From the IMG/VR virus record IMGVR_UViG_3300025828_003628, positions 1-26,078 of that record: a stretch of 26,078 bases of DNA, one strand, 5' to 3'. This document shows, piece after piece, positions 8,605-25,981 of this stretch. The position numbers were made by a program, and so were the translations under genes. A model generated the notes under the pieces. The model had not been told where the DNA came from. It searched no databases and saw only the letters and a list, made by a program, of their open reading frames with translations. Numbering within the stretch: the stretch's first letter is position 1; the number at the start of each line of letters is the position of its first letter. The stretch is from a virus.

Positions 8605-8609
8605 TTTTT

Positions 8610-8628
8610 TATATTAAATAAAAAGTAT
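8610..8628 (+). promoter_or_regulatory. Putative phage promoter, TATATTAAATAAAAAG motif
   Basis: The 25-base gap holds TATATTAAATAAAAAGTAT just before the ATG at 8630. Sixteen consecutive bases, TATATTAAATAAAAAG, are identical to the copy at 1661. An exact shared string this long at two intergenic sites argues for a conserved promoter or leader element and a new transcription unit starting here. Confidence 0.5.
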
Positions 8629-8629
8629 A

Positions 8630-10131: not shown

Positions 10132-10337
10132 TACAGTTTAAACATGCTCATTGTTATGTGTATGAATTCGTTCTATCACGACGCGAAGGCGGATATGAAG
10201 CTATCAAGTATGAACTATTAACAGACATTACCGGACCTAAGCATAAACAGAATCGGGAATGGCTAGAACAAGGTATTCGAATTGCATATGGATTCAAGCC
10301 TAAGGGCATAACATATAAATACGATAAATACAAATGA
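10128..10337 (+). CDS. Hypothetical protein, 69 aa
   Basis: I do not recognise this small basic protein. It has no membrane helix, cysteine pair or known motif; it is rich in tyrosine and lysine, ending in YKYDKYK. It overlaps the nuclease gene by four bases and the SLOG-like gene by four bases, both as ATGA, which is the main support for it being translated. Its role may be tied to either neighbour, but nothing in the sequence shows this. Confidence 0.6.
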   Translation: MIQFKHAHCYVYEFVLSRREGGYEAIKYELLTDITGPKHKQNREWLEQGIRIAYGFKPKGITYKYDKYK

Positions 10338-10735
10338 AGATTGCAGTAATCGGAAACACGGATTGGCAGAATCGCCGCAAAGTAAAAGATGTATTATACA
10401 ACATAAAAAATAAATTTGGCAGTGAAGCTACGATACTAGGTGCCGGAGGTAAAGAAGGCGCAAACCATATGGTTCGTAAGTATGCATTAGAATTTGATTT
10501 AAATTACCTTGAATATAATCCTTCTTTTTCTGGATACAACATCTATTCAGCAATGAATGAATCATATTACGGCAAGAAGTATCATTTCAGTCAATTGCAC
10601 CACAGAATGAAAATGCTAGCAGAAAACTGTGATTACATGATTATCATGAGCAATCAAGAAAAATTAGATCCGGTGTTAAAGACTGCATACAATCACACAA
10701 AAAAACAAGATAAATCGGTTGTTATTTTAAAATAA
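10334..10735 (+). CDS. SLOG-like (YspA/DUF2493-type) Rossmann protein
   Basis: The 133-residue protein starts with a Rossmann-like MKIAVIGNTDW strand-turn and carries GAGGKEGANHMVRKYA (about residues 36-51), which matches the GGAxGAD-xxA loop of the YspA branch of the SLOG superfamily. A later HRMKMLAENCDYMIIMSN helix-strand fits the second conserved part. SLOG proteins are thought to bind or process nucleotide-derived ligands and recur in phage and defence contexts; no specific reaction can be claimed. It ends the operon that began at 8630, since a 37-base gap follows. Confidence 0.65.
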   Translation: MKIAVIGNTDWQNRRKVKDVLYNIKNKFGSEATILGAGGKEGANHMVRKYALEFDLNYLEYNPSFSGYNIYSAMNESYYGKKYHFSQLHHRMKMLAENCDYMIIMSNQEKLDPVLKTAYNHTKKQDKSVVILK

Positions 10736-10772
10736 TATATTTATAATAAAGTTATAAAAAAGAAAAGGTTTT
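10736..10772 (+). promoter_or_regulatory. Putative promoter and leader
   Basis: The gap reads as TATATTTATAATAAAG, then an A-rich leader, before the ATG at 10773. TATAATAAAG is also present before 13556 and resembles the TATATTAAA core at 1661 and 8610. The leader contains AGAAAAGG about five bases before the ATG, one of the few purine-rich stretches in this window that could act as a weak ribosome binding site. Confidence 0.4.
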
Positions 10773-12254
10773 ATGGAGTTACCAAAACTACAACCAGTAA
10801 CAGACAAGAAAAAACGAAAAATTTTATTGTTATCAGATGATTTAAGACTTCCATCTGGTATTGGAACTATATCACGTGAAATTGTGTTGAATACAGTTGA
10901 TGAATTTGATTGGGTTCAACTAGGTGCGGCACTAGAACATCCAGACCACGGAAAAGGAATTGATATATCACAGGAAGCTGTAAAAGAAACCGGTGTGCAA
11001 GATGCATCAGTTAAAATTATTCCGTGGACAGGTTATGGAGATCGCAACATATTAATGGCTCTTATCAACAACGAAAAGCCAGATGCTATTATGCACTTCA
11101 CAGATCCTAGATATTGGACGTGGCTGTATGCATTAGAACACGAAATTAAGAATACTTATAATATTCCTATTATATATTATTCAATTTGGGACGATCTTCC
11201 ATTTCCAATGTGGAATGCTCCATACTATGCAAGTTGCGATTTGATTATGGGTATTAGCAAACAATCACATAATATTCACAATGAAGTTCTCAACCAGAAC
11301 GGGTTTAAAACTATTAACCTAGATGAAGTATCACCTGACGCAGTTGTTGATAGCAAAACCATACTAACTAGTTTCGTCCCACATGGATTAAATCATCGAT
11401 TTTTCAAACCTTTGCCTGAAGATGACCAACAATATCAACAAATGTTTGCTGATATCAAAACGGTTAATGATGTAGACTTTTTAGTAATGTGGAACAACAG
11501 AAACATCAGAAGAAAACAACCAGGCGATGTTATCTTGGCATTCAAAGAGTTTCGTTCCAAACTACCAAAAGAAAAACAAGATAGAGTTGCACTATTAATG
11601 CACACTAATATATCAGATGCGAATGGAACCGATTTACGTGCTGTATGGAAGGCGGTTGCTCCAGAATGTAAAATTATATTCTCAGAGAAAAAACTAGCAA
11701 CAGATGCACTTAATGCCATGTATAACGTAGCAGATGTAGTGATTAATATAGCATCCAACGAAGGATGGGGTCTAAGTAGCACCGAAGCAATGTTATCAGG
11801 TACTCCGATTATCAACAATGTTACCGGAGGTCTTCAAGATCAATGTGGGTTCTTAGATGAAAGCGGAAAATGGATTCGATTCTCCGGAGAATTCACAAGC
11901 AACCATACCGGTAAATATGAAATACACGGCGAATGGGTAAAACCAGTATTTCCAGCTTCTCGATCGCTTCAAGGTTCGCCAGCAACACCATATATATTTG
12001 ATGATCGAGTAAAATTTACAGATGTAGCCGATGCAATCATGTATTGGTATGAGAAGTCAGCAGATAAAAGAAAAGAATGTGGCGAAGCTGGTAGAGAATT
12101 TTGTTTAGCTAATGGATTAACAGCAGAACAAATGGGACAGTCAATGAAACGTGATATTGCAAAGCTATTTGAATATAAACCAAATGTAGCAAACAGATAC
12201 ACTATTAAATCAGTTACGCCGAAACAATACGAAAATATAGGAATTACCCAATGA
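10773..12254 (+). CDS. GT-B fold glycosyltransferase (GT4-like), large
   Basis: This 493-residue cytoplasmic protein has the two lobes of a GT-B enzyme. The first begins KILLLSDDLRLPSGIGTISRE (residues 17-37), the acceptor-side glycine-rich start. The second carries WNNRNIRRKQPG near residue 241 and ASNEGWGLSSTEAMLSGTP (about 327-345), the E-x7-E donor-binding region of GT4. No membrane segment is seen. Arginine codons are about evenly CGN and AGA (10 of 19 CGN by my count), so it looks native to the phage, not part of the transferred-looking cassette that begins at about 14 kb. It is ATGA-coupled to a second GT-B gene, so the two may act in series on one acceptor. Donor and acceptor are unknown. 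Confidence 0.85.
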   Translation: MELPKLQPVTDKKKRKILLLSDDLRLPSGIGTISREIVLNTVDEFDWVQLGAALEHPDHGKGIDISQEAVKETGVQDASVKIIPWTGYGDRNILMALINNEKPDAIMHFTDPRYWTWLYALEHEIKNTYNIPIIYYSIWDDLPFPMWNAPYYASCDLIMGISKQSHNIHNEVLNQNGFKTINLDEVSPDAVVDSKTILTSFVPHGLNHRFFKPLPEDDQQYQQMFADIKTVNDVDFLVMWNNRNIRRKQPGDVILAFKEFRSKLPKEKQDRVALLMHTNISDANGTDLRAVWKAVAPECKIIFSEKKLATDALNAMYNVADVVINIASNEGWGLSSTEAMLSGTPIINNVTGGLQDQCGFLDESGKWIRFSGEFTSNHTGKYEIHGEWVKPVFPASRSLQGSPATPYIFDDRVKFTDVADAIMYWYEKSADKRKECGEAGREFCLANGLTAEQMGQSMKRDIAKLFEYKPNVANRYTIKSVTPKQYENIGITQ

Positions 12255-13525
12255 GAAAAGTAGTTATAGCATCACCAGTAGCAACACAATCGGGTTACGG
12301 ACACCATGCCCGCGAATTTATTACCAATGCAATGGAACTAATGAGCGAAGAGTGGGATATTAAATTGGTTTCGATGCCATGGGGTAACACTCCATTTACA
12401 TATCCACTGCCTATTCATTGGCAACAGGCAATGATTGGATTACCTTTAAAGGAACAGCCTGATGTTTGGGTTCAAATAACAGTACCAAATGAATTCCAAC
12501 CGGTAGGTAAATACAATATTGGAGTAACTGCAGGAACAGAAGGAGATACTTGCCCGAAAGAATGGATTGAAAGTATTAATCGCATGAATACGGTTGTGGT
12601 GCCAAGTGAATTCACCAAGCAAGTTTTTGAAGATACTGCAAAACAACACGGATTAACCATTACTTGCAAGTTGCAGGTAGTTTCTGAATATTATAGAAAA
12701 TCAGTGTATTCCACAGAAACAGAAAGTGCACAGAACCCAGCTCAAATATTACCAAGTCTCAACGATATACCAGAGTCATGGTGTTTTCTTTCAGTAGGAC
12801 ATTGGTTGTCTGGAGTATTAGGAGAAGATCGAAAAAATATATCCGGATTATTATACACGTTCTTTGATGCATATAAAAACAAAAAGAATGCACCTGCTTT
12901 GATACTAAAAACTAGCGGCGCAACCTATTCAGTATCAGACAGATTTGATATTGAGAATAAAATCAATCAAGTACAAGATTTGTTTGAGTCACATCGATTG
13001 CCAAATGTGTATATTGTGCACGGAGACTTAACTGACACGGAAATGAATGCGTTGTATAATCATCCTAAAGTTAAAGCAATGCTGTCATTCACAAAAGCAG
13101 AAGGATTTGGAAGACCACTTTTAGAATTTTCAACTACAGGTAAACCTATCATTGCTCCACATTATTCCGGCCAGAAAGATTTCTTGCATGAAGATTATGT
13201 ATGCCGATTAGCAGGAGGATTAACACCGATACATAAAACGGCTCAAAATCAATTTTTAATAGATGGAGCTAAATGGTTCACAGTTAATCCAAAACATGCA
13301 ATCCAGATGATGAAGGATGTTCAGAAGAACTACAAAAAATGGTCAGAGCTTGGTAAACGACAACGATACTATGTGAATCAGAATTTTGAAAAACAACATG
13401 TGCAAGAAACACAGTATAAAGCATTATTTGAAACAATTGCAAAAGATTTACAAGCAATACCACAACAAATAGAATTGAAACTTCCTAAACTAAATTTACC
13501 TAAACTGCAAAAGGTTGGAGAATAA
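12251..13525 (+). CDS. GT-B fold glycosyltransferase (GT4-like)
   Basis: This 424-residue protein begins KVVIASPVATQSGYGHHARE, a typical GT4 N-terminal strand and glycine loop, and has KAEGFGRPLLEFSTTGKPII (about residues 281-300), the E-x7-E donor site. SVGHWLSGVLGEDRKN in the middle fits the start of the second lobe. It is related in layout to the preceding gene and overlaps it by four bases, so they probably form an enzyme pair. The C-terminus ends in a short leucine/proline repeat, LKLPKLNLPKLQKVGE, which may be a docking tail. A gap with a promoter-like motif follows, so this is the last gene of its unit. Confidence 0.85.
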   Translation: MRKVVIASPVATQSGYGHHAREFITNAMELMSEEWDIKLVSMPWGNTPFTYPLPIHWQQAMIGLPLKEQPDVWVQITVPNEFQPVGKYNIGVTAGTEGDTCPKEWIESINRMNTVVVPSEFTKQVFEDTAKQHGLTITCKLQVVSEYYRKSVYSTETESAQNPAQILPSLNDIPESWCFLSVGHWLSGVLGEDRKNISGLLYTFFDAYKNKKNAPALILKTSGATYSVSDRFDIENKINQVQDLFESHRLPNVYIVHGDLTDTEMNALYNHPKVKAMLSFTKAEGFGRPLLEFSTTGKPIIAPHYSGQKDFLHEDYVCRLAGGLTPIHKTAQNQFLIDGAKWFTVNPKHAIQMMKDVQKNYKKWSELGKRQRYYVNQNFEKQHVQETQYKALFETIAKDLQAIPQQIELKLPKLNLPKLQKVGE

Positions 13526-13534
13526 CAAATTATT

Positions 13535-13555
13535 TCATATAATAAAGAAAAAGTT
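13535..13555 (+). promoter_or_regulatory. Putative phage promoter, TATAATAAAG motif
   Basis: The 30-base gap contains TCATATAATAAAGAAAAAGTT directly before the ATG at 13556. The AAAAAGTT ending matches the copy at 1661 and the TATAATAAAG core matches 10741-10751. It is the last such motif before the glycan cassette, so cassette transcription may begin here. Confidence 0.45.
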
Positions 13556-13768: not shown

Positions 13769-14020
13769 ATGACAGAAAAAGAAATACAACTTCTAGGTTT
13801 TGAAAAACATGTTGAGGAAGATACTGAACATCCATTCTATTACTATACATTGGATATAGTAACTGGTTTAAGTTTCATCTCTAATTCAAGCGACGAAGTA
13901 AAAGAAGATGCTTTTGGATGGTATATTGAACTTTTTGACACTGAACCATCCATTATATACACAAACTTCGGAGATGCAATGGGTTTAATAAACAATCTCA
14001 CAAGACACATAGTAAAATGA
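13769..14020 (+). CDS. Hypothetical acidic protein, 83 aa
   Basis: The product is a small acidic alpha/beta protein: an N-terminal LLGFEKHVEE, a tyrosine-rich strand (FYYYTLDIVTG), GLSFISNSSDE, then FGWYIELFD and a C-terminal helix. It looks like a small phage protein family that I know only as unnamed, so no function is given. It starts after an A-rich leader and overlaps the first cassette glycosyltransferase by four bases (ATGA), linking the cassette to the phage transcription unit upstream. Confidence 0.65.
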   Translation: MTEKEIQLLGFEKHVEEDTEHPFYYYTLDIVTGLSFISNSSDEVKEDAFGWYIELFDTEPSIIYTNFGDAMGLINNLTRHIVK

Positions 14021-14646
14021 AAATAAGTTATGCAATAACAGTTTGCAATGAACGAGAAGAAATAGAACGTCTCATATCATTCCTCCTCAAACATAAACGA
14101 GATGAAGATGAGATTGTCATACTTGTTGACGAAACCAACAGTACTGGAACGGTTCAAGACTATGTTGAGATGATAGCACAAGAGTGTCTAGATCAAAACG
14201 TAACAAGATCATATCATCCATTACGAAACGACTTTGCTGCTCATAAGAATTATCTGAACTCTAAATGCACAGGAGATTATATCTTCCAAATCGATGCAGA
14301 CGAAATGATTACAGAATACATGTTACATACATTGCCTCTAATTTTAGAAAATAATCGAGTAGACATGATACGCGTACCTAGAATCAATACGGTTGTCGGA
14401 TTAACTGAAGAGCATATTAAGAAGTGGGGTTGGAGAGTTGATGAAAAAGGCAGAGTTAATTTTCCAGACTTTCAAACAAGAATCTATCGCAATGATGCAT
14501 CAATATCTTGGCAAGGCAAAGTGCACGAAAAGATTACAGGTTGTAAATTTGTTTCATATTTACCGCTTAATGATGAATATTGCTTGATACATCACAAAAC
14601 AATAGATAAACAAGAACAACAAAACGAATTTTATGATACGATATGA
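14017..14646 (+). CDS. GT2-family glycosyltransferase
   Basis: This 209-residue protein is a short GT-A fold transferase of the GT2 type. It begins ISYAITVCNEREEIERLISFLL, the usual nucleotide-sugar strand, and has the metal-binding DAD in FQIDADEM (about residues 92-99). The later FPDFQTRIYRN and ISWQGKVHEKI segments are typical of the subgroup related to lipopolysaccharide core transferases. It has no membrane anchor. It is coupled by ATGA overlaps on both sides and opens the eleven-gene cassette. Which sugar it moves is not visible. Confidence 0.85.
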   Translation: MKISYAITVCNEREEIERLISFLLKHKRDEDEIVILVDETNSTGTVQDYVEMIAQECLDQNVTRSYHPLRNDFAAHKNYLNSKCTGDYIFQIDADEMITEYMLHTLPLILENNRVDMIRVPRINTVVGLTEEHIKKWGWRVDEKGRVNFPDFQTRIYRNDASISWQGKVHEKITGCKFVSYLPLNDEYCLIHHKTIDKQEQQNEFYDTI

Positions 14647-15836
14647 AAACACCTAAAAACCCAATACAACTATTTAAAGTACATATGAGCCCAAATGCTA
14701 AAGAGGAGGTGGGCAAAGTATTAGATTCAGGATACATTGGACAAGGTCCAAAAGTAGATGAATTTGAAAATAATCTTAAAGAATACTTCAATAACGATTA
14801 CCTTTTAACCCTCAACTCAGGCACTTCGGGTCTACACCTAGCACTCCACCTACTTAAAAAACCTCAAACAGTTACCAAAAATTTCGAGAGTATAGCTTTT
14901 TGGGATGTCTATTGGCCTGGAATTGAAGAAGGAGATGAAATATTGGCAACTGCCCTAACATGCACAGCATCAAATTTCCCAATTTTAGCAAATGGTTTAA
15001 AAATAAAATGGGTTGATATAGACTCCACCACTCTAAATATGGACTTAGATGATCTCGAAAGAAAAATTACCCCAAAAACAAAAGCAATTATATTAGTTCA
15101 TTGGGGAGGGTATCCCAATGATCTCAATAGAATTCAAAAAATTCAAGAAAAATCCAAAAAATTATATGGATTCAAACCCGCTATCATAGAAGATGGAGCA
15201 CATTCATTTGGATCCAAATATCAGGGAAAATATTTGGGAAACCACGGAAACATAGTAATGTATAGCTTACAAGCTATTAAACATATTACTTCAATTGATG
15301 GAGGGGTATTATCATTGCCCCACCAAGAATTATATAATAGAGCTAAATTATTAAGATGGTATGGAATTGATAGAGAATCAAATAGAAAAGATTTTAGATG
15401 TGAAGCTGATATTGAAGAATGGGGGTTTAAATTTCATATGAATGATATTTGTGCTACTGTAGGAATTGAAAATCTTAAGCATGCTAATGAAATAATAAAA
15501 AAACATCAAGACAATGCTTCCTACTATGATAAGAACCTTCAAGGAATAGATAAGCTTACCCTACTAACCCGACATAAAGACAGAGAATCAGCATTTTGGA
15601 TATATAGTATGTTAGTTGAAGATAGAGATAAATTTATGGAACATATGAAAAACTGCAATATTGTTGTTTCTCAAGTCCATGAAAGAAATGATAAACATAC
15701 TTGTGTTAGAGAATACAAATCCTCCCTACCAACATTAGATAAAACCATAGATAAAATAGTTTCAATTCCTGTAGGCTGGTGGGTAACCGAGGAAGAAAGA
15801 GAATATATTGCTAACTGTATTAAAAAAGGATGGTAA
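14643..15836 (+). CDS. DegT/DnrJ/EryC1-family sugar aminotransferase
   Basis: The enzyme should be a PLP-dependent aminotransferase that converts a keto-sugar nucleotide to an amino sugar. Visible family features are NSGTSGLHLALHL (about residues 58-70, phosphate binding), EDGAHSFGSKYQGK (D184, pyridine nitrogen) and MYSLQAIKHITSIDGGVL, where K213 is the PLP lysine. The C-terminal NDICATVGIENLK helix also fits. A stretch of about 20 extra residues (roughly 72-93, VTKNFESIAFWDVYWPG) lies where most relatives go directly to GDEV; the family lysine and aspartate are intact, so it is probably active. Twelve of thirteen arginines use AGA, unlike the replication genes. The formyltransferase and the Gfo/Idh/MocA dehydrogenase in the same run could act before and after it. 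Confidence 0.93.
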   Translation: MKTPKNPIQLFKVHMSPNAKEEVGKVLDSGYIGQGPKVDEFENNLKEYFNNDYLLTLNSGTSGLHLALHLLKKPQTVTKNFESIAFWDVYWPGIEEGDEILATALTCTASNFPILANGLKIKWVDIDSTTLNMDLDDLERKITPKTKAIILVHWGGYPNDLNRIQKIQEKSKKLYGFKPAIIEDGAHSFGSKYQGKYLGNHGNIVMYSLQAIKHITSIDGGVLSLPHQELYNRAKLLRWYGIDRESNRKDFRCEADIEEWGFKFHMNDICATVGIENLKHANEIIKKHQDNASYYDKNLQGIDKLTLLTRHKDRESAFWIYSMLVEDRDKFMEHMKNCNIVVSQVHERNDKHTCVREYKSSLPTLDKTIDKIVSIPVGWWVTEEEREYIANCIKKGW

Positions 15837-15837
15837 T

Positions 15838-16398
15838 ATGAAATACATAAACCCTGACATAGAGTCATCTTACAAAGCAAATAATTTAGGTGAAACACTA
15901 TATAATTATGTAATAGAAAACAAACCTAAGAAAATTATTGAATTCGGAACTCTTTATGGATATTCAGCGGCCTGTATGGCTATGGCCTTAGATGAGTTAA
16001 ATAATGGTGGTAAAATCATATGTTATGATTTATGGGAAAAATATCCATATAAACATTCTATTATTGAAAAAACAAAACAAAATCTACAAAACTATAATAT
16101 ATCCCAATATGTAGAATTTAAAGAATTGAATTTTAAAGAATGGATACCTGAAGATTTTGATTTACTTCATGTAGATATTTCAAATGATGGTAATACTATT
16201 GTTGAATTAAGTATAAATTGTTTTAATCAATTAAAACAAGGAAAACATATTTTATTTGAAGGAGGAAGTATAGAACGTGATAATGTTGACTGGATGATAA
16301 AATACAACAAACAACCTATTAACACAATAAAATCTATAATTAATTATACTGTAATTGATAAAAAATTCCCCTCAATATCTAAACTAGAACTTAAATGA
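15838..16398 (+). CDS. SAM-dependent methyltransferase-like protein (class I)
   Basis: This 186-residue protein has a motif I-like KKIIEFGTLYGYSAACMA segment (about residues 29-46) and an acidic ICYDLWEK at the end of strand 2, where the SAM ribose is bound. FDLLHVDISNDG fits motif IV. It resembles the Methyltransf_24 and cephalosporin-hydroxylase-like group of small class I enzymes, which often sit in glycan clusters. The chosen start is the ATG at 15838, one base after the aminotransferase stop, with AAGGATGG upstream; an ATG at 15808 would overlap by 29 bases and is less likely. It may methylate a sugar, but the target is not shown. Confidence 0.75.
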   Translation: MKYINPDIESSYKANNLGETLYNYVIENKPKKIIEFGTLYGYSAACMAMALDELNNGGKIICYDLWEKYPYKHSIIEKTKQNLQNYNISQYVEFKELNFKEWIPEDFDLLHVDISNDGNTIVELSINCFNQLKQGKHILFEGGSIERDNVDWMIKYNKQPINTIKSIINYTVIDKKFPSISKLELK

Positions 16399-17162
16399 AA
16401 AAATTAGCAATAGTAGCATCAGGGTGGCATTTTCCTTATAGTTTTTATAAGTCCATATCAACTCAACTTCTCCCAGAAAATTGGAAAATGGATTTATTTT
16501 GTATATCCCACAGAAACCCTTTATTTTCAGCTGAAGAAAAATCAAACATAACTTTAGAAGGAGAAAGAGCTTATTTAGATTTAAAGTTATATAGTAATAT
16601 TGCTTCTATAGGAGATATTAAAAATTTAGGTTGGTATTATAAAGAATATCCTAACACTATAGGAGATTGGGGATGCTCAAATCAATGGTTGGAAGAAAAT
16701 AATTATAATAATTATGATTTAATTTTATTTACACATGATGATAATTTAATATTATCTGAAAATTGGTTTTTAGATATTATAAAAGATAGTGAATCTAATG
16801 ATTGGGAAATCCTTTCAAATAGTTGTGGAGCACCATCAGGTTGGTTAAGAGGATCTTGTGAATTTTTTAAACCTAACCTTCTTAATAAGATAGGAGGAAA
16901 ATTTGACCTATCATTAGTAACATTAAATCGAACTGATAAACTATATGGCTCACAAGATATAGCAGAATTATCAAATTGGAATAATACTGTAATACCTTTA
17001 ATGAATTTTATTAGGAATAACAACATTAAAGTAAAATATTTATCTAATTTTTATAGGGTATCTAAATACTGTTTAGAAGGAGAACGTGGATTTATTTCAA
17101 AAACCACACATACTAATACTCGAAGTGAAAATGAAGGACTTAAACATTTAAATTTAATATGA
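16395..17162 (+). CDS. GT-A-like glycosyltransferase
   Basis: The 255-residue protein looks like a GT-A type transferase. It has an N-terminal strand (KKLAIVASGWHFPYSFY), a DLILFTHDDNLIL segment (about residues 109-121) with the HDDN that corresponds to the DXD metal motif, and a later NSCGAPSGWLRGSCEFF region. No membrane helix is visible. The DNA is very AT-rich here (the 60 bases from 16741 have ten G or C), and more so than the replication genes. It is coupled to both neighbours by ATGA. The subfamily cannot be named from sequence alone. Confidence 0.65.
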   Translation: MKKLAIVASGWHFPYSFYKSISTQLLPENWKMDLFCISHRNPLFSAEEKSNITLEGERAYLDLKLYSNIASIGDIKNLGWYYKEYPNTIGDWGCSNQWLEENNYNNYDLILFTHDDNLILSENWFLDIIKDSESNDWEILSNSCGAPSGWLRGSCEFFKPNLLNKIGGKFDLSLVTLNRTDKLYGSQDIAELSNWNNTVIPLMNFIRNNNIKVKYLSNFYRVSKYCLEGERGFISKTTHTNTRSENEGLKHLNLI

Positions 17163-17845
17163 AAAAAGATTTCTTAGTTTTAACTTGCACTTTAGGGGAA
17201 AAAGACATAATAAAAGATCCCCCAACACCATTTGAATCATGTGATTATATTGCAATAGTTGATAAAGATCATGATGTAAAAATTTGGCAACAGTTTGGAT
17301 ATTATAATTTTTCATCAATTGATAATTATACGCATAGGAGAAATGCAAAATTATATAAAGTACTATCTTCAATGTTATTTTCAGAATATAAATACATCAT
17401 ATGGCATGATGCTAATCATCAATTGATACAAGATCCAATTGATATTATAAAAGAATATGGAGAACATGATTTTTATTTATTGAAACATCCTTTGCGTAAT
17501 TGTTTATACGACGAAATGAATATAATTTCAGGATATTTAGATTCTGCAGATATTATAAAACAACAGCGTGAATATTATATAAAATGCGGGTTTCCTAAAA
17601 ATTATGGATTATTTGCTATGGGTAATCACATGAAACGTGTAAATAATAAAACTACAATATTAGGACTAAAATGGTGGGAACAGATAACTAGATTTAGTTC
17701 GAGAGACCAATGCAGTTTTGCATATTGTTTATGGGACATGAAAAACAATAATCAAGAAATAGATTTTATAACACTTAATGCACCATTAGAAAATACATTA
17801 GTATTAAACAAATACTTTATAGACTATGGTACTAGATTAAAATAA
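17159..17845 (+). CDS. DUF616 (TOD1/MUCI70)-like glycosyltransferase
   Basis: This 228-residue protein matches the DUF616 family, whose plant members are glycosyltransferase-like. Landmarks are RRNAKLYKVLSSMLFSEY followed by KYIIWHDANHQL (about residues 60-91), the histidine-rich FYLLKHPLRNCLYDEM, and RFSSRDQCSFAYCLWD near residue 178. In the family these are the RxxK helix, the DXD-like WxDAN motif, the HxxRxxxYxE motif and the RDQxSFxY motif, all present in order. Bacterial members are often found in surface-polysaccharide loci, which fits this cassette. The gene starts in a four-base overlap and ends ten bases before the next. Confidence 0.8.
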   Translation: MKKDFLVLTCTLGEKDIIKDPPTPFESCDYIAIVDKDHDVKIWQQFGYYNFSSIDNYTHRRNAKLYKVLSSMLFSEYKYIIWHDANHQLIQDPIDIIKEYGEHDFYLLKHPLRNCLYDEMNIISGYLDSADIIKQQREYYIKCGFPKNYGLFAMGNHMKRVNNKTTILGLKWWEQITRFSSRDQCSFAYCLWDMKNNNQEIDFITLNAPLENTLVLNKYFIDYGTRLK

Positions 17846-17855
17846 AAATTACATT

Positions 17856-18563
17856 ATGAAAAAATTAACTATAAATATACCTACTTTAAACAGTCATGAA
17901 ATTGTAAAATCACAAATTACTAGATTTCAAAATATTTTGAAAAATTATAAAAATGACGTAGATGTATTAATAATTGATGATGGTAGTACTCCATCACTAA
18001 TAGATTACCTTAAAGAACATAAAATCAATTTTATTAAACATGACAAAACTGAAAACAATTTAGATGTTTGGAAATTAGATAATATTTTTATTATAGAAAC
18101 AAAAAATTATACAAATTGGACTCAAGCAATTGCATCCAATATTGGTGTTCGATATGCTAATAGTGATTATGTATATAACACTGCTATCGATCATTTTATA
18201 ACTTTAGAAAACATACAAGAAGTTTTAAATTTTAATGGAGACTGTCTAAAATTTCCAAGAAAATATGGAGTAATTCAAGAAAATGGTAATGTTAGTACTG
18301 ATATTGAATTATTAAAAAAGCATCATTATGATGGAGGTAATGTTAATGTTGCTTGGGACATATACTCAATGAAACGAAACTTATTTTTAAATATTAATGG
18401 ATACAACGAAGAAAAATTTGGTGATTATTGGGCCGTAGATATAGATTTTTTTACTAGATATAAAAATCAAGGTAACAGTGTCGACATTGCAAATAATCAT
18501 ATTTTCGTGTATCCAGAACCAGATAAAAATACTGAAATATTTCATAATTTAAAGAGAAGTTAA
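17856..18563 (+). CDS. GT2-family glycosyltransferase
   Basis: The protein is a 235-residue GT2 enzyme. It opens KLTINIPTLNSHEIV and has VLIIDDGSTPS (about residues 37-48), the UDP-sugar binding turn. NSDYVYNTAIDHFIT lies where the DXD is expected. NGYNEEKFGDYWAVDIDFFTRY (about residues 179-200) matches the acceptor-side helix with its ED/D residues. There is no membrane segment. It starts ten bases after the previous gene with an A-rich leader, and its stop shares one base with the next start (TAATG). Confidence 0.85.
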   Translation: MKKLTINIPTLNSHEIVKSQITRFQNILKNYKNDVDVLIIDDGSTPSLIDYLKEHKINFIKHDKTENNLDVWKLDNIFIIETKNYTNWTQAIASNIGVRYANSDYVYNTAIDHFITLENIQEVLNFNGDCLKFPRKYGVIQENGNVSTDIELLKKHHYDGGNVNVAWDIYSMKRNLFLNINGYNEEKFGDYWAVDIDFFTRYKNQGNSVDIANNHIFVYPEPDKNTEIFHNLKRS

Positions 18564-19249
18564 TGAATATAGGAATATTTACATATAATTTTCCACATTG
18601 GAAAACGCAAGAAGGATTACATAACTTATTCTTACATGGATATAAACCTCAAGTAATACTTGCAGCAAACCCAGTTAAATTAAATTTTTATCAATCAAAA
18701 ATAAGAATTGCTCCGAAAGATTTATTTTTGCAACATCCTATAGATTTAGCAAAACGTTATGACATAGATTATCATGTTGTTGAACATAATTCTGAACGTA
18801 CAGCTAATATTGTTAAACAATATAACTTAGATTTAGGAATTATATTAGGCGCACGGATATTAAAACCTATAGCATTTGAAAATTTTAATATTGGAGTTTT
18901 AAATATGCACCCGGGTATACTTCCAGAAAATCGAGGATTAGATAATGTTAAATGGGCTATTATAAATGGACATGCCCAAGGCGTAACAACACATTTAATT
19001 GATAGTAAAATAGACCGTGGAGTCATGATAGAACAAGAAACAATTGATATATATCATGATGATACTTTAATGGATATGCATATACGTATTCAACATTTAG
19101 AACAAAAACTAATGATATCATCAATTGAAAAAGTAAAAAACGGAAAAATGGGAAATAAGTTAGAACAGGGTAATTATTATAAATCTGTTCCCGAAGATAT
19201 TGAGCAAACTCTTTTAACTAAATTAAAGCAATATAAAAATGAAATATAA
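18563..19249 (+). CDS. Sugar N-formyltransferase (Fmt-like fold)
   Basis: The protein should transfer a formyl group from 10-formyltetrahydrofolate to an amino group. The catalytic triad of the methionyl-tRNA formyltransferase fold is visible: N114 and H116 in GVLNMHPGILPENRG and D151 in HLIDSKIDRG, with WAIINGH between. It is 228 residues and lacks the C-terminal domain that Fmt uses to bind tRNA, as is usual for sugar formyltransferases such as those that make N-formylated amino sugars of O-antigens. Neighbouring aminotransferase and dehydrogenase genes support a sugar substrate; which amino position is modified is unknown. It overlaps the dehydrogenase gene by 11 bases. Confidence 0.85.
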   Translation: MNIGIFTYNFPHWKTQEGLHNLFLHGYKPQVILAANPVKLNFYQSKIRIAPKDLFLQHPIDLAKRYDIDYHVVEHNSERTANIVKQYNLDLGIILGARILKPIAFENFNIGVLNMHPGILPENRGLDNVKWAIINGHAQGVTTHLIDSKIDRGVMIEQETIDIYHDDTLMDMHIRIQHLEQKLMISSIEKVKNGKMGNKLEQGNYYKSVPEDIEQTLLTKLKQYKNEI

Positions 19250-20270
19250 AGTAGGTATTATAGGTTGCGGAGCTATACTTCCTAGACATCTTGAATCAAT
19301 TGAAGCAAATGATAATTTTGAATTAGTAGCGATTTGTGATATTCAAGAAATATTAGTAACAAGCATATCAAAAAGATTAAATATTAAATCATACACTGAT
19401 TATAAGGATATGATATGTAGTGGAGAGGTTGATTTTGTGGTAGTAGCTACACCAAATTCTTTACACGTTGAGCAAGCAGTATTTGCCTTACAAAATAAAT
19501 GTGATGTTTTAATAGAAAAACCTGTAGCTTTTTCTTTAAAAGAAATTGAATTTATTAATAGCATTTCTCAAAAGACAAAACAAAATGCATATTGTGTGTT
19601 ACAAGTTAGATTAAATCCAACAGTTCAATTGTTAAAAGAAATATTAGCCGAAAATTTATTAGATGAAATTAGAGGTGTTACCTTAATCCAGCGTTGGCAA
19701 AGACCATTAGAATACTTTACAGGATGGCGTGCTGAACCAAATGTTGGAGGAGGGACTTTATATGAATGTGGTATTCATTATTTGGATGTATTACAATACC
19801 TTTTTGGGAGGCCTACAGTTATTGGTTCAAAAACATATGAAATAAAACATAAAAATATAGGGATTGAAGATACAATATATTCAATATTTGATTTTGGAAA
19901 TTTTGGGGGAACTTGTGAAGTAACCATTGCCGCTGAACCACAAAATCTAGAATGTTCCATTTCAGTAATGGGTGCTAATGGGTATATTAAGTTAGGAGGC
20001 AAAGCTCTTAACATAGTTGAATCAGCTAAATTTTTATCACATGGAAGTCAAATAGAATTTAATAAATTGCAAAAGAAATATAACATATCTATACAACCTA
20101 ATTCATACGGGTCATATCAAGGGTCATGTCCTAATCACCCATATGTTTATCAAAATTTAGAGCAATTTTCTTTATCTCAAACAAACAATGTTATAAGTTT
20201 AATTGATGATATATATTCAAAGTCAGGAATAAAGTATAGAAAAAAAATAATTAATGAAAATAATATATAG
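19239..20270 (+). CDS. Gfo/Idh/MocA-family sugar dehydrogenase (WlbA/WbpB-like)
   Basis: This NAD(P)-dependent enzyme has the Rossmann start YKVGIIGCGAILPRHLE (residues 3-19), VVVATPNSLH, the catalytic lysine in IEKPVA (K94) and ECGIHYLDVLQYLFG (H179, D182), all in the expected order. The segment VGGGTLYECGIHYLD is reminiscent of WlbA/WbpB, which oxidise UDP-GlcNAc uronate at C3 ahead of a DegT-type aminotransferase. That pairing is inference; the family also includes many other sugar dehydrogenases. The length of 343 residues is normal. Only two of nine arginines use CGN. The gene overlaps the formyltransferase by 11 bases and the following gene by 17. Confidence 0.9.
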   Translation: MKYKVGIIGCGAILPRHLESIEANDNFELVAICDIQEILVTSISKRLNIKSYTDYKDMICSGEVDFVVVATPNSLHVEQAVFALQNKCDVLIEKPVAFSLKEIEFINSISQKTKQNAYCVLQVRLNPTVQLLKEILAENLLDEIRGVTLIQRWQRPLEYFTGWRAEPNVGGGTLYECGIHYLDVLQYLFGRPTVIGSKTYEIKHKNIGIEDTIYSIFDFGNFGGTCEVTIAAEPQNLECSISVMGANGYIKLGGKALNIVESAKFLSHGSQIEFNKLQKKYNISIQPNSYGSYQGSCPNHPYVYQNLEQFSLSQTNNVISLIDDIYSKSGIKYRKKIINENNI

Positions 20271-20952
20271 AATATCAGATGCGGGTTATAATAAAATAAA
20301 ACCAGAATATATCAACAACGAATTATGTTTAAAAAACTTTTGTAATGTTTTCTTTGATCATATTTATGACATTCATATTATAGCTGATAATTGTAGTGAC
20401 GATACTAAGAAAATGATCAAAAAGTATATCGATCCACATAATATAGATATAGTATCAGTGGGTCATGGTGCTGGAACATTCAATTTAGCACTAGACAGAG
20501 CTTTAACTTACAATGATGATGACATAGTTTATTTTATAGAAAATGATTACTTGCATAAACCAGAATCAGTAAAAATACTAAAAGAAGGATTTGAATTAGG
20601 AGCTTCATTTGTAGCACTATATGACCATCCTGACAAATACCTTGACCCAAGCAAAGGAGGTAATCCGTATTGTGTTGGGGGGGCTGAAGACACAAGAGTT
20701 TATTTGACTGATAGTTGCCATTGGAAAATAACCAATAGCACGACTATGACATTTTCATCAAAAATATCCACACTAAAACGAGTAGAACCCATATTGAGAA
20801 AACATACCGCGGGAACTCATCCAAATGATTTCCAAATGTTTTTAGAATTGAGACAACAAGGAGAACTATTAATAACGCCGATACCAGGTTATGCAACACA
20901 CGGAGAAACTGCTTGGTTATCACCTTTAACAGATTGGGAGGCATACTTATGA
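20254..20952 (+). CDS. GT-A-like glycosyltransferase
   Basis: The 232-residue product starts KIIYRISDAGYNKIKPEYINN, continues with IHIIADNCSDDT and has DDDIVYFIENDYLHK (about residues 88-102), where END takes the place of the DXD motif. A C-terminal RKHTAGTHPNDFQMFLELRQQG and PGYATHGE segment resembles phage and bacterial relatives of unknown acceptor. It starts 17 bases inside the dehydrogenase gene and overlaps the next by four bases. No membrane segment. I would call it a glycosyltransferase on pattern and context, but the subfamily is not clear. Confidence 0.65.
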   Translation: MKIIYRISDAGYNKIKPEYINNELCLKNFCNVFFDHIYDIHIIADNCSDDTKKMIKKYIDPHNIDIVSVGHGAGTFNLALDRALTYNDDDIVYFIENDYLHKPESVKILKEGFELGASFVALYDHPDKYLDPSKGGNPYCVGGAEDTRVYLTDSCHWKITNSTTMTFSSKISTLKRVEPILRKHTAGTHPNDFQMFLELRQQGELLITPIPGYATHGETAWLSPLTDWEAYL

Positions 20953-21659
20953 ATAAACAAGAAAAATTAAATCAATTAGAAAATAAATTAATATTAGATA
21001 TTAATAATAAATCATACTATGAAGACTTTGATCATGAAATCTATGGTAATACATTGGAGCCTGGTTCAATGCCCGCTCCATATTTTTATGATTGGGTAGC
21101 TAATGAAACATCGAATAGATTAAATAATCAGCCAGTATTAGGGATCGAAGTGGGTAGTTTTTTAGGGTATTCTGCAATAGGATTTGCTAAAAAATTAAAA
21201 GAAACAGCTCCAGGATCTAAATTAATATGTATTGATACATGGTTAGGTAGTCCGGAGCACTATAGATTTTTAAAACGAGATGGCGATAATAGACTAGGAT
21301 GGAAAAATGGCTATCCAACCATGTATCATAAATTCATATCGAATGTAATTTATAATGATTTACAAGATGTTATTATACCATTAGCATTTCCTTCAACGAT
21401 AGCATTTAAAGTTTTAAAGTCTTTGTTTGATGAAATTGATATTAAAGCAGATTTTGCTTACATCGATGGTTCTCATGAAGAACACGAAGTTTATATGGAT
21501 TTGTATTATTACTACCAACTTTTATCCACAGATTCTTATTTATGTGGAGATGATTGGGCTTGGGAGTCTGTTAGAAATGATGTTACTAAATTCGGCCGGG
21601 AACATGATTTGAAGGTTAATGTTCATCAAAATCAAGTACATTGGAATATTATAAAATGA
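20949..21659 (+). CDS. SAM-dependent methyltransferase (Methyltransf_24-like)
   Basis: The protein has a well-formed class I methyltransferase core: VLGIEVGSFLGYSAIGFAKKL (about residues 54-74, motif I), KLICIDTWLG (strand 2 acidic) and ADFAYIDGSHEEHEVYMDL (about residues 164-182, the Methyltransf_24 DGSH signature), then LSTDSYLCGDDW. The target is probably a small molecule or sugar. The ATG at 20949 sits in an ATGA overlap with the previous stop and gives a start at MNKQEK; an in-frame ATG at 20913 lies deep inside the upstream gene and is less likely. It differs from the shorter enzyme at 15838 but shares its motif I style, so the two may act on the same glycan. Confidence 0.85.
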   Translation: MNKQEKLNQLENKLILDINNKSYYEDFDHEIYGNTLEPGSMPAPYFYDWVANETSNRLNNQPVLGIEVGSFLGYSAIGFAKKLKETAPGSKLICIDTWLGSPEHYRFLKRDGDNRLGWKNGYPTMYHKFISNVIYNDLQDVIIPLAFPSTIAFKVLKSLFDEIDIKADFAYIDGSHEEHEVYMDLYYYYQLLSTDSYLCGDDWAWESVRNDVTKFGREHDLKVNVHQNQVHWNIIK

Positions 21660-22438
21660 TATCAGTAATAATACCAACATATAAATCACCAGATATGCTT
21701 GATCTATGTTTACGGTCAGCTATCAAAGGACAACAACACAAAAATCAAATCATAGTTGTGGTTGATGGGTTCTATGACCTTAATAAAGAGGTATTAGAAA
21801 AATGGGAAGAACATATCAACATTCTTAATTTAGAGGAAAATGTAGGCTTGTGCCGGGGAACTAACCTAGGAGTATACAATGCAAAGTATAATAAAATACT
21901 AATAGTTAATGATGATAATGTTTTCCCAAAAGATTGGGATGCAATATTAGAAGAAGAATGGGAACTTTATCAAGAATTGAATAAAAAAGTAGTAATCTCT
22001 CCAAATCAAATAGAACCTTATCCTTCAATGTTTAAACAATTCGTACATAAAGATTTAGGGAAGAATGTGGGTGAGTTTGATTTGAACAAGTTTTGGGAAT
22101 ATGAAGCCCTTTTATCGGGAGCATCCCCAACTCGAAATGACGAAACCGGATCCACACTCCCAATTTTTATGAGTAAAGTAGACTACCTTCGTTTAGGTGG
22201 ATGGGATGAAAATTATGAAATGGGAATGGTAGCGGATTGGGATTTCTTCTTAAAATGTCAATTATCGGGATTAAAAATGATTAGAAGTTATAGATGTAAT
22301 TTTTACCACTTTGCCTCGGCTTCAACAAATGGAGAAAAAAGACAAATAGCAGAAAGAAATGGACATGCTTACGCACAATATAAATGGGGTTCACCTATAA
22401 TGCACGAACCTAATACAAACAAAAAATATTTAATCTGA
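21656..22438 (+). CDS. GT2-family glycosyltransferase
   Basis: This 260-residue GT2 enzyme opens ISVIIPTYKSPDMLDLCLRS and has IIVVVDGFYD, NVGLCRGTNLGVY and ILIVNDDNVFP (about residues 79-90), where NDDN is the DXD metal motif. LRLGGWDENYEMGMVADWDFFLK (about residues 178-200) is the acceptor-side region with the conserved D-W-D. The chosen ATG at 21656 overlaps the methyltransferase stop (ATGA); an upstream in-frame ATG at 21641 would overlap by 19 bases. It is the last cassette gene; a 56-base gap with a promoter-like motif and a short palindrome follows before the lysis genes. Confidence 0.9.
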   Translation: MISVIIPTYKSPDMLDLCLRSAIKGQQHKNQIIVVVDGFYDLNKEVLEKWEEHINILNLEENVGLCRGTNLGVYNAKYNKILIVNDDNVFPKDWDAILEEEWELYQELNKKVVISPNQIEPYPSMFKQFVHKDLGKNVGEFDLNKFWEYEALLSGASPTRNDETGSTLPIFMSKVDYLRLGGWDENYEMGMVADWDFFLKCQLSGLKMIRSYRCNFYHFASASTNGEKRQIAERNGHAYAQYKWGSPIMHEPNTNKKYLI

Positions 22439-22445
22439 TGTAATA

Positions 22446-22489
22446 TGTCCCAAGTTTATATTTATATTAAAATAAACAAGTTTAGGACA
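22446..22489. repeat. Nested inverted repeat with 8-bp direct repeat
   Basis: TGTCC (22446-22450) pairs with GGACA (22485-22489), and inside it GTTTAT (22454-22459) pairs with ATAAAC (22472-22477). CAAGTTTA is also repeated directly at 22451 and 22477. The arms are short and AT-rich and there is no U-tract, so a terminator is unlikely; an operator or RNA hairpin before the lysis genes is possible. Confidence 0.4.
22463..22477 (+). promoter_or_regulatory. Putative phage promoter, TATATTAAA motif
   Basis: TATATTAAAATAAAC lies 17 bases before the lysis start and matches the TATATTAAATAAAAA copies at 1661 and 8610 apart from one inserted A. It sits inside the loop and inner arm of the inverted repeat. 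The leader also has TTTAGGAC, a weak ribosome-binding candidate. Confidence 0.4.
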
Positions 22490-22494
22490 ACATC

Positions 22495-23660: not shown

Positions 23661-23746
23661 AACGAATGAAATCTACAAATGTTCGAAAAGGTAAAATGGA
23701 TTGTTATCCACATCCTAGGTTAGTTAAAATACTAGAAAATTTATGA
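23657..23746 (+). CDS. Tiny basic ORF, 29 aa
   Basis: A 29-codon ORF, starting MKRMKSTNVRKGKMDC and ending PRLVKILENL, fills the whole gap between amidase and histidine kinase. Its ATG overlaps the amidase stop and its own stop overlaps the kinase start, both as ATGA. The peptide is strongly basic in its first half and includes one cysteine and HPRLVK. I do not recognise it. The double coupling is good evidence for translation, but it could also be a leader that only helps ribosomes reach the kinase start. Confidence 0.5.
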   Translation: MKRMKSTNVRKGKMDCYPHPRLVKILENL

Positions 23747-24987
23747 TACGGTTAGACGCAAAGACAATAACAGCAATTGCATTAGCAGTAGTAATAATGC
23801 TATCATTCTTTGTGGTTAAAACTTTAGTAATGGTTGATTGGATTGAATATACTCTGATGGTAAAATGGTATGAATATTTATCTGTTATAGGATTTATGCC
23901 TCCATTCTTTTATGCAATGAGTAAAATATACCGTATTCAATACCTAGAAACACTTAAAAAACGAACCCTCGAATCTATACTAGATGAATCATGCCTAGTA
24001 TCCCGTACAGATAAACATGGACTAATTACAGATGTTAATAACAAGTTCTGTGAAGTATCTGGATATAAACGGCAAGAACTTTTAGGTAAAGATCATCGAG
24101 TATTAAATTCTGGTACACATCCACGTGCATTATGGACTCAGATGTATGAAACAACTATCAAATACAAATCGATATGGCATGAGATTGTAACGAATCGAAA
24201 GAAAGATGGTGATTTATATATCGTAGATTCACATATAATGGCTACGTTTGATGCCGCTGGTAGACACTCAGGCTTTATTTCTGTGCGGCAAGATATCACT
24301 CAGCTAATGAATTCTTTGCAAGAGGTCGATCGAAAAAACGCTTACCTCGAACATGCAGCTAAAATTTTAAGACATGATATGCATTCCGGAATCAATACGT
24401 ACATTCCACGGGGTATATCTTCGCTTGAAAGGCGCTTAAATAAAATGGTGTGTGATAAAGAATTGAAGAGTATTGATGCACCGATGAAGATGTTGAAAGA
24501 AGGATTAGCGCATGCACAGAAGGTGTATAATGGGGTTAAGGAGTTTACTAATCTTGTGAAAAAAGATGCAGTGATGGAAAGACAGTCTCACAACCTCAAA
24601 TGTATAATTGATGCCTATCTCAAATCAACATCTTACAAAAGTAATGTAGTTGTTGATGATATGGGAGAGGAGATGGTAAATGAATCACTCTTCTGTACAG
24701 CTATTGATAATTTGATACGTAATGGATTACGATATAATGATAACGATACTAAGTATGTAAAGATATATAGAGAATCAAATAAAATTATTGTGGAAGATAA
24801 TGGTAGGGGAATGTCTCAAGAAGATTTTGAGGAATTATCTAAACCATATACACGTAAAACAGGACAAAAAGAGCCGGGTTCTGGATTAGGTTTAAACATA
24901 TGCATAGCCATCATGAAAGAACACGGATTCGAAGTTACATGCGAGAAATTAGAGACAGGAACAAAATTAAAAGTAAAGGTATCGTAA
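23743..24987 (+). CDS. Membrane-anchored PAS-domain sensor histidine kinase
   Basis: This 414-residue protein is a two-component sensor. Two hydrophobic helices at about residues 8-30 and 44-60 anchor it, leaving almost no periplasmic domain, so sensing is probably within the membrane or cytoplasm. A PAS domain spans about 80-187, with LVSRTDKHGLITDVNN and FCEVSGYKRQELLGK, then HSGFISVRQDIT, a PAS/PAC layout. The phosphoacceptor is H211 in LRHDMHSGINTY. The catalytic domain shows the N box (IDNLIRNGLRYN, N323 and N327), G1 (EDNGRGM, 351-357), F box (FEELSKPYTR) and G2 (GSGLGL, 379-384). All key residues are intact. It is coupled directly to a response regulator, and lies after the phage lysis genes. 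Phages rarely carry complete histidine kinases. Confidence 0.95.
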   Translation: MIRLDAKTITAIALAVVIMLSFFVVKTLVMVDWIEYTLMVKWYEYLSVIGFMPPFFYAMSKIYRIQYLETLKKRTLESILDESCLVSRTDKHGLITDVNNKFCEVSGYKRQELLGKDHRVLNSGTHPRALWTQMYETTIKYKSIWHEIVTNRKKDGDLYIVDSHIMATFDAAGRHSGFISVRQDITQLMNSLQEVDRKNAYLEHAAKILRHDMHSGINTYIPRGISSLERRLNKMVCDKELKSIDAPMKMLKEGLAHAQKVYNGVKEFTNLVKKDAVMERQSHNLKCIIDAYLKSTSYKSNVVVDDMGEEMVNESLFCTAIDNLIRNGLRYNDNDTKYVKIYRESNKIIVEDNGRGMSQEDFEELSKPYTRKTGQKEPGSGLGLNICIAIMKEHGFEVTCEKLETGTKLKVKVS

Positions 24988-25424
24988 TGATAGAGTCAAT
25001 CATGTTAGTAGATGATGAAGATCTATTTCATTTAGTGTTTGAAGATGCATGTAGCTTGTTAGACATTACATTGTCACTACAGGCACTGAGTAGTGCAGAT
25101 GAAGCTGGAAAATTATTTAAAAAGTGGTTTGAAAACGGACCTATAGAAGAAAGACCAGAGTGTGTGTTTGTTGATTTAAACATCATTGGATCTACATTTG
25201 ATGGAATTGAATTAGTTAGACGTATTAACTTTGAATATGGAGACAATGTTGTTATTGGTATTATATCTTCAAGCAACGAAGTTTCAGAGCAAGCAAAGGC
25301 AGTACAAGCAGGAGCTCAATTCTGGATAGTTAAATCAGATGAAATTGAACCTAGGTTAGAAGAATTCTTGCAAGACTACGAAGGATATAAAACAAAGTCT
25401 GCTCCTTTTAAAGTTTATAAATGA
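24987..25424 (+). CDS. Single-domain response regulator (CheY-like receiver)
   Basis: The ATG at 24987 is within TAATG at the kinase stop, giving a 145-residue protein; an upstream in-frame ATG at 24900 would add an implausible tail inside the kinase gene. The receiver residues are all present: D9/D10 in MLVDDED, the phosphoacceptor D63 in VFVDLNI, S94/S95 in GIISSS and K116 in IVKSD. No DNA-binding or enzyme output domain follows; only a short C-terminal tail is left. It should therefore act by protein contact, as CheY or Spo0F do, or pass phosphate on. The next coupled gene encodes a membrane coiled-coil protein that is the obvious candidate partner. Confidence 0.95.
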   Translation: MIESIMLVDDEDLFHLVFEDACSLLDITLSLQALSSADEAGKLFKKWFENGPIEERPECVFVDLNIIGSTFDGIELVRRINFEYGDNVVIGIISSSNEVSEQAKAVQAGAQFWIVKSDEIEPRLEEFLQDYEGYKTKSAPFKVYK

Positions 25425-25981
25425 AAAAAATAAAGTTACATAACGAAACAGTAAAGCAGTTATTAGAATTAAAAAAAAGTCGAAGAGTTACATTAGAAGG
25501 CAACCTTTTAAAACTGATAGATGCAGAGCATGATGCTGAGTTTAACAAGTATCTGCAGGATGCTATTGAAGAAGGCAAAACTAAGCAAAGACAACGTTTA
25601 GACATTACTAAAAAAATACAAACTCAGAACAAAGAGTTATTAGAATCGCAACAAGAAAAAGATAAATTAATGAGTCAATTGGAATCTGCATTGACTCAAG
25701 CCGAATCAGCAAAAAACGAAGCATTAAATGATTTGGATGTGTTGCAACGAAAAACTCAATTTAAACTCATACAAACCATAGTACGGATTGCATTGGCAAT
25801 AATCATTGGAGTGGGTGTATGCACTACGGTATTATACATATACTCAATGACTCTAGATCGAGATACTGAATTGATTGGAAATACCTGGAGCAACATGTTC
25901 GGCATCCTGCTAACTAATGCTTTTAGTATCATAGGTACTATAATGGGTGTTAAATATGCCAGCAAAGACTCTGCAGACTGA
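25421..25981 (+). CDS. Coiled-coil membrane protein with two transmembrane helices, possible output of the two-component system
   Basis: The 186-residue protein is charged and helical to about residue 112, with a heptad-like stretch (KKIQTQNKELLESQQEKDKL, then MSQLESALTQAESAKNEALN) that should form a coiled coil. Two hydrophobic helices follow, at about 118-142 (with LAIIIGVGVCTTVLYIY) and 155-178 (FGILLTNAFSIIGTIMGV), then a short polar tail. I know no name for the family. It begins in an ATGA overlap with the response regulator, so the three are made together. A cytoplasmic coiled coil plus membrane pair could change conformation on binding phosphorylated regulator, or bind other membrane proteins; this is inference. 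Confidence 0.75.
   Translation: MKKIKLHNETVKQLLELKKSRRVTLEGNLLKLIDAEHDAEFNKYLQDAIEEGKTKQRQRLDITKKIQTQNKELLESQQEKDKLMSQLESALTQAESAKNEALNDLDVLQRKTQFKLIQTIVRIALAIIIGVGVCTTVLYIYSMTLDRDTELIGNTWSNMFGILLTNAFSIIGTIMGVKYASKDSAD

Follow-up and report, generated by a model that had tools for sequence, protein, structure and literature searches.

The window, the whole 26,078-base IMG/VR contig, carries a run of glycan biosynthesis genes flanked on the 5′ side by a T4-type polymerase, clamp and clamp loader and on the 3′ side by a holin and an amidase endolysin, the placement given in the preliminary description. Structural genes are absent from this 26 kb. The run comprises a SLOG/YspA-like gene, three scaffold glycosyltransferases (the third being the first gene of the cassette described earlier) and the rest of the cassette:

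10334-10735, + strand: SLOG/YspA-like protein, between a nuclease and the first scaffold glycosyltransferase (PF10686, E 3.5e-6)
10773-12254, + strand: scaffold glycosyltransferase 1, GT4-like, GT-B (PF00534, E 6e-7)
12251-13525, + strand: scaffold glycosyltransferase 2, GT4-like, GT-B (PF00534, E 3.8e-7)
14017-14646, + strand: scaffold glycosyltransferase 3, GT2 with DxD, first cassette gene (PF00535, E 2.3e-12)
14643-15836, + strand: DegT-type sugar aminotransferase (PF01041, E 6.5e-74)
15838-16398, + strand: SAM methyltransferase, Methyltransf_24 (PF13578, E 1.2e-10)
16395-17162, + strand: probable GT-A glycosyltransferase (AlphaFold core match to GT-A folds; DDN motif)
17159-17845, + strand: TOD1/MUCI70 glycosyltransferase-like protein (PF04765, E 5.6e-14)
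17856-18563, + strand: GT2 glycosyltransferase with degenerate DxD (PF00535, E 1.9e-7)
18563-19249, + strand: sugar N-formyltransferase (PF00551, E 9.6e-19)
19239-20270, + strand: Gfo/Idh/MocA sugar-nucleotide dehydrogenase (PF01408, E 5.6e-24)
20254-20952, + strand: GT2 glycosyltransferase, first of a recurring closing pair (PF00535, E 1.3e-5)
20949-21659, + strand: SAM methyltransferase, Methyltransf_24, inserted within the closing pair (PF13578, E 3.6e-11)
21656-22438, + strand: closing GT2 glycosyltransferase, last before the holin and endolysin (PF00535, E 1.1e-14)

The 11 ORFs at 14017-22438 are all intact on the + strand, and adjacent genes either overlap or are separated by no more than 10 bases, in agreement with the original report of eleven genes without any meaningful gap. 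Three ORFs were listed with an upstream TTG; they probably begin at the ATGs at 15838, 20949 and 21656. The proposed contents (six glycosyltransferase-like genes, an aminotransferase, a formyltransferase, a dehydrogenase and two methyltransferases) are borne out by Pfam and by a structural model of 16395-17162, which is counted among the six. This gene has no family match in Pfam, and its DDN motif is kept in three homologues. The AlphaFold model (from three homologues; mean pLDDT 62) has a core that matches GT-A and nucleotidyltransferase folds; with this moderate-confidence model, the gene product is probably a glycosyltransferase. The G+C content is 25-31% across most of the cassette versus 32-37% in the surroundings. 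The concern that the cassette might be an assembly join was addressed with a second contig, IMGVR_UViG_3300007640_006527, which has the same arrangement and covers the complete cassette together with its two junctions at 99.91-99.99% nucleotide identity, so a join is unlikely. Related sampling campaigns could be the source of both contigs.

We compared the locus among 82 close relatives, whose clamp loader is at least 80% identical, taking into each count the contigs that reach the position; most of the uncultured contigs compared are fragments. The first scaffold gene (10773-12254) was present in 35/35 close relatives and the third (14017-14646) in 28/28, while 12251-13525 was syntenic in 86 loci, all of them with 14017 as well. 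The same nuclease, GT4, GT4, GT2 order is seen again in more distant phages, among them the cultured Flavobacterium phage vB_FspM_immuto and Microcystis phage Mel-JY01, and just 9 INPHARED records match 10773-12254. Given this universal presence and recurring order, the first cassette gene is part of the scaffold, which puts the beginning of the locus near 10773. The real unit exceeds the reported cassette and consists of the scaffold (10773, 12251 and 14017) and the array behind it. The idea of the eleven-gene cassette as one unit therefore holds for its genes but not for its self-containment, as its first gene belongs to the scaffold and its interior is exchangeable. A viral-contig scan with GT12251 returned three loci only, its peptide patterns being too specific.

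The SLOG/YspA-like protein, whose PF10686 match falls just below the curated cut-off, occurs as 62 ORFs in the fetched loci and adjoins the scaffold glycosyltransferases in close relatives; it is possibly a nucleotide-sugar sensor. In divergent relatives, the second and third scaffold glycosyltransferases are separated by an unassigned gene of some 150-175 residues (L242:18905-19363, L124:2869-3393 and L163:6799-7266), and this gene is absent in close relatives.

Behind the scaffold, the arrays differ in nearly every phage. The third scaffold gene was recovered in 69 distinct copies, and the array behind it could be traced to an end in 28 cases with a simple ORF caller and heuristic array ends. 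Counting genes of 130 residues or more, these closed arrays contain 270, which fall into 180 clusters at 40% identity, and 152 of the clusters are confined to one locus. The mean pairwise Jaccard index between arrays is 0.064. Array overlap is unrelated to scaffold identity up to about 80%, and only nearly identical pairs depart from this. Interior families include nucleotide-sugar enzymes, glycosyltransferases, methyltransferases and NeuB; the frequency of the aminotransferase is inflated because many of the loci were fetched with an aminotransferase query. The far end is more regular: the closing GT2 profile (21656) is matched by the final large gene in 23 of the 28 arrays and by the penultimate one in 2 more, and homologues of 20254 that are 78-84% identical adjoin the 21656 homologue in L257, L254, L252, L247 and L159. 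The methyltransferase at 20949-21659 has no homologue among the fetched loci.

Locus L163 illustrates how such interiors move. Its genes corresponding to 14643-18563 encode proteins 87, 81, 85, 74 and 74% identical to those of the window (80.7% at the nucleotide level), whereas its nuclease and three scaffold glycosyltransferases are only 46, 44, 41 and 50% identical, which shows module exchange. The nucleotide similarity sets in some 50 bases short of the third scaffold gene's end and extends to the end of 17856-18563; one epimerase/dehydratase then replaces the formyltransferase and dehydrogenase, after which a 20254 homologue returns. In other phages, too, a formyltransferase lies near a Gfo/Idh gene, mostly with an epimerase in between (L269-L272). 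The interior is thus swapped wholesale among related viruses around a fixed glycosyltransferase frame; the comparison with related phages suggested in the preliminary description yields a universal scaffold and an interior that changes from one phage to the next. A megablast search of INPHARED with the cassette matched nothing. In the viral collection 132 relatives of the aminotransferase were found (65-100% identity among the 80 kept), against one relative, at 57%, in the collection of bacteria and archaea; this pattern-based scan, which favours close relatives, shows a phage-centred clade, and bacterial absence does not follow from it. The cultured relatives, the one basis for assigning a host, hint weakly at Bacteroidota.

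Non-functional cargo that fills a headful-packaged genome has been offered as one option for cyanophage LPS clusters (PMC3037559). Here, every frame is intact, the scaffold is universal in close relatives, and in the pairs tested dN/dS was similar for the shared cassette genes (0.09-0.16) and two scaffold genes (0.11-0.17), values that are approximate as several dS estimates exceed 1. With ratios this low the genes are clearly maintained, and the estimates indicate that the shared genes are under purifying selection; we regard the cargo explanation as very improbable.

The biosynthetic genes give some indication of the sugar. The nearest solved chains to the DegT aminotransferase are 4xau, 4zwv and CalS13 4zas (E 1e-108 to 1e-118), that is, sugar aminotransferases of the AtmS13/CalS13 type. 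The formyltransferase is nearest to PseJ and also matches VioF and ArnA, and the dehydrogenase at 19239 is nearest to 3q2i and 3q2k, which are WlbA structures. None of the NCBIfam equivalog cut-offs was reached. It is reasonable to infer from these similarities that the product would be an N-formylated amino sugar, derived from a nucleotide sugar of the host and carrying its amino group at C3 or C4. A cytidylyltransferase-like gene also lies in the replication module at 2124-2567 (PF01467, E 4.1e-11), under the glycerol-3-phosphate cytidylyltransferase equivalog cut-off.

The glycosyltransferases of the locus are soluble GT-A and GT-B types, and the earlier remark that no flippase, polymerase or export gene is seen extends to the relatives sampled. 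Neither a Wzx-type flippase (PF01943) nor a lipid-initiating transferase (PF02397) was matched in 26 records, nor a PF13440 flippase or PF04932 Wzy/ligase domain in 14 records, while bacterial controls were positive in both searches. The flippase, polymerase and initiating transferase required of a Wzx/Wzy surface polysaccharide locus were accordingly not detected in these 14-26 records. A hydropathy survey of array genes found no polytopic membrane protein within the arrays, bar one epimerase false positive; it otherwise flagged short holin-like proteins and others, all beyond the arrays. Matches to PF14667 were considered as flippase parts and rejected: the one examined, L245:5260-6327, also matches cupin families and fits a CapF-type enzyme, and the array proteins there are not polytopic. 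The gtrABC seroconversion system of temperate phages combines a GtrA flippase with GtrB and a serotype glycosyltransferase; here the cassette is without a polytopic protein, and the window has only weak GtrB-like matches.

These results bear on the suggestion, made in print for P-SSM2 (PMC2984593) and for pelagimyophage glycosyltransferases (PMC7029224), that such genes change a host surface glycan. Here the locus would alter LPS, capsule or a glycolipid via host lipid carriers and flippases and so block competing phages, and the interior families do resemble those of O-antigen loci. A lipid-linked surface polysaccharide built by the phage itself is disfavoured because the export genes are missing; host export machinery could be borrowed, so their absence does not exclude a surface glycan. 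In no record tested was the flippase, polymerase or initiating transferase found, the arrays bear no polytopic membrane protein, and the locus adjoins lysis genes, a hint of late expression. On balance, we consider a host surface target rather unlikely. Matches to the late-promoter motif TATAAATA were no commoner than in shuffled sequence and are uninformative on timing, and sigma-70 and terminator scans were at or below chance. Similar A+T-rich leaders (TATATTAAATAAAAAGT-like) occur in the gaps 1646-1680, 8605-8629, 10736-10772, 13526-13555 and 22439-22494; these could be promoters or leader sequences.

Phage DNA is another conceivable acceptor, the sugars serving as an anti-restriction modification. 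Virus-encoded glycosyltransferases that add several sugars to DNA have been reported (Pyle et al. 2024, as cited in PMC12619734), and in the window a GT-B glycosyltransferase (GT2920) and a TGT/DpdA-like gene lie at 2920-5374 with a 25-base overlap. The TGT/DpdA-like gene is present in 48/48 close relatives reaching the position, and a glycosyltransferase-like gene abuts or overlaps it in most of them: among 49 relatives with a gene just upstream of TGT, that gene is GT2920-like in 44, mostly overlapping or abutting. However, the TGT clade is missing from Mel-JY01 and from more divergent scaffold-bearing records, so the glycan locus is independent of it. Moreover, Mel-JY01, cultured, recorded as complete and scaffold-bearing, has no thymidylate-synthase-family gene, and the matches to this family checked in four relatives are ordinary thymidylate synthases; the dCMP/dUMP hydroxymethylase of T-even hydroxymethylpyrimidine glucosylation was thus found neither in Mel-JY01 nor among these matches. 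The T4 alpha and beta DNA glucosyltransferase families have no Pfam match among the window glycosyltransferases. Glycosylation of DNA by this locus therefore seems improbable, more so than a surface glycan.

The GT2920 model (AlphaFold pLDDT 81) matches GT-B, and the TGT retains D-S-G-G-[FY]-Q, a second Asp and a Cys/His cluster in every case but the distant immuto DpdA. This pair possibly yields a glycosylated 7-deazaguanine in DNA or tRNA; no 7-deazaguanine precursor pathway was seen in the window. Solved-structure searches with GT12251, GT2920 and TGT gave no useful match. PF01702 was rejected as a DpdA test: neither a 73% homologue in G001 nor the annotated immuto DpdA was picked up, an insensitivity that prevents other DpdA clades from being excluded with it.

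With a phage-built surface polymer and T-even-type DNA modification disfavoured, the acceptor would be a phage-made cytoplasmic molecule, most simply a virion protein. DNA, virion protein and host surface had been left unranked as targets in the preliminary description; the first and last lose ground (no hydroxymethylase-type gene in Mel-JY01 or among the matches checked, no export genes in the records sampled), and by elimination we place moderate confidence in a virion protein whose sugar diversity is selected via recognition of the particle. On this reading, a short oligosaccharide would be initiated in the cytoplasm by the scaffold enzymes, with nucleotide sugars taken from the host. An N-formylated amino sugar and methyl caps would come from the aminotransferase, dehydrogenase, formyltransferase and methyltransferases, and the remaining glycosyltransferases would extend and cap the chain without a lipid carrier or export. 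Diversity would then be selected as exposed sugars alter how the particle is recognized. We give about an even chance to this overall picture, in which a large clade of aquatic T4-related phages carries a modular, polymorphic glycan locus that builds an oligosaccharide stepwise in the cytoplasm on a virion protein. More tentatively, and with the balance somewhat against it, the locus may be the phage counterpart of an O-antigen locus, in which initiating and closing glycosyltransferases frame swapped sugar cassettes and give rise to phage serotypes on common particles.

Bacterial cytoplasmic protein-glycosylation islands, such as flagellin islands and GtfA/GtfB adhesin clusters, likewise have sequential soluble glycosyltransferases, a variable interior and no flippase. 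The locus appears to share these features, and GtfA is one of the many GT-B enzymes that the GT2920 model resembles, but the locus has neither sequence membership in such islands nor a bacterial-type acceptor gene. Virion glycosylation of the mycobacteriophage kind places a phage-encoded glycan on a capsid or tail protein (PMC12619734), and four core glycosyltransferases are reported in Bacteroidota-associated moraphages (PMC12619734).

Phage glycan clusters as such are already known, as LPS-type clusters in cyanophages and glycosyltransferase islands in pelagimyophages (PMC3037559, PMC2984593, PMC7029224). The locus belongs with the phage-borne LPS-type clusters of the P-SSM2 kind, having clustered glycosyltransferase and nucleotide-sugar genes in a T4-related phage. 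The cyanomyovirus clusters (P-SSM2, S-SSM7 and S-SM2) also hold many surface-polysaccharide-type genes in T4-like phages, with unknown function (PMC3037559, PMC2984593). By description, these are placed close to hli03, phoH and tRNA genes in a small number of large genomes, whereas here a fixed glycosyltransferase scaffold adjoins the replication module and the interior varies. The pelagimyophage host recognition cluster is a hypervariable glycosyltransferase-bearing island of T4-like phages as well, but it is situated in the structural part of the genome, together with tail-fibre genes, and GT8 is its favoured family (PMC7029224), in contrast to the position between replication and lysis genes and the conserved GT4-GT4-GT2 leaders found here. 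A fixed frame with an exchangeable interior was not found in the literature searched. In immuto and Mel-JY01 the interiors differ from that of the window, although immuto additionally has a DegT gene (57%) with a methyltransferase behind it; both loci are annotated gene by gene in the regions read, and we found no published description of either as a glycan locus.

Glycosyltransferase clusters of environmental phages have been sighted for two decades with no agreement on their target. The conserved frame singles out three scaffold enzymes for deletion, and since the cultured immuto carries this frame, it can be tested directly whether the target is the virion, the DNA or the host surface. If virions are sugar-coated, these phages would swap surface sugars much as bacteria exchange O-antigens.

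Beyond the endolysin, at 23743-25981, the window encodes a PAS-domain histidine kinase, a single receiver and a coiled-coil membrane protein, a set retained in about 20 fetched relatives; a two-component system on a phage is unusual.
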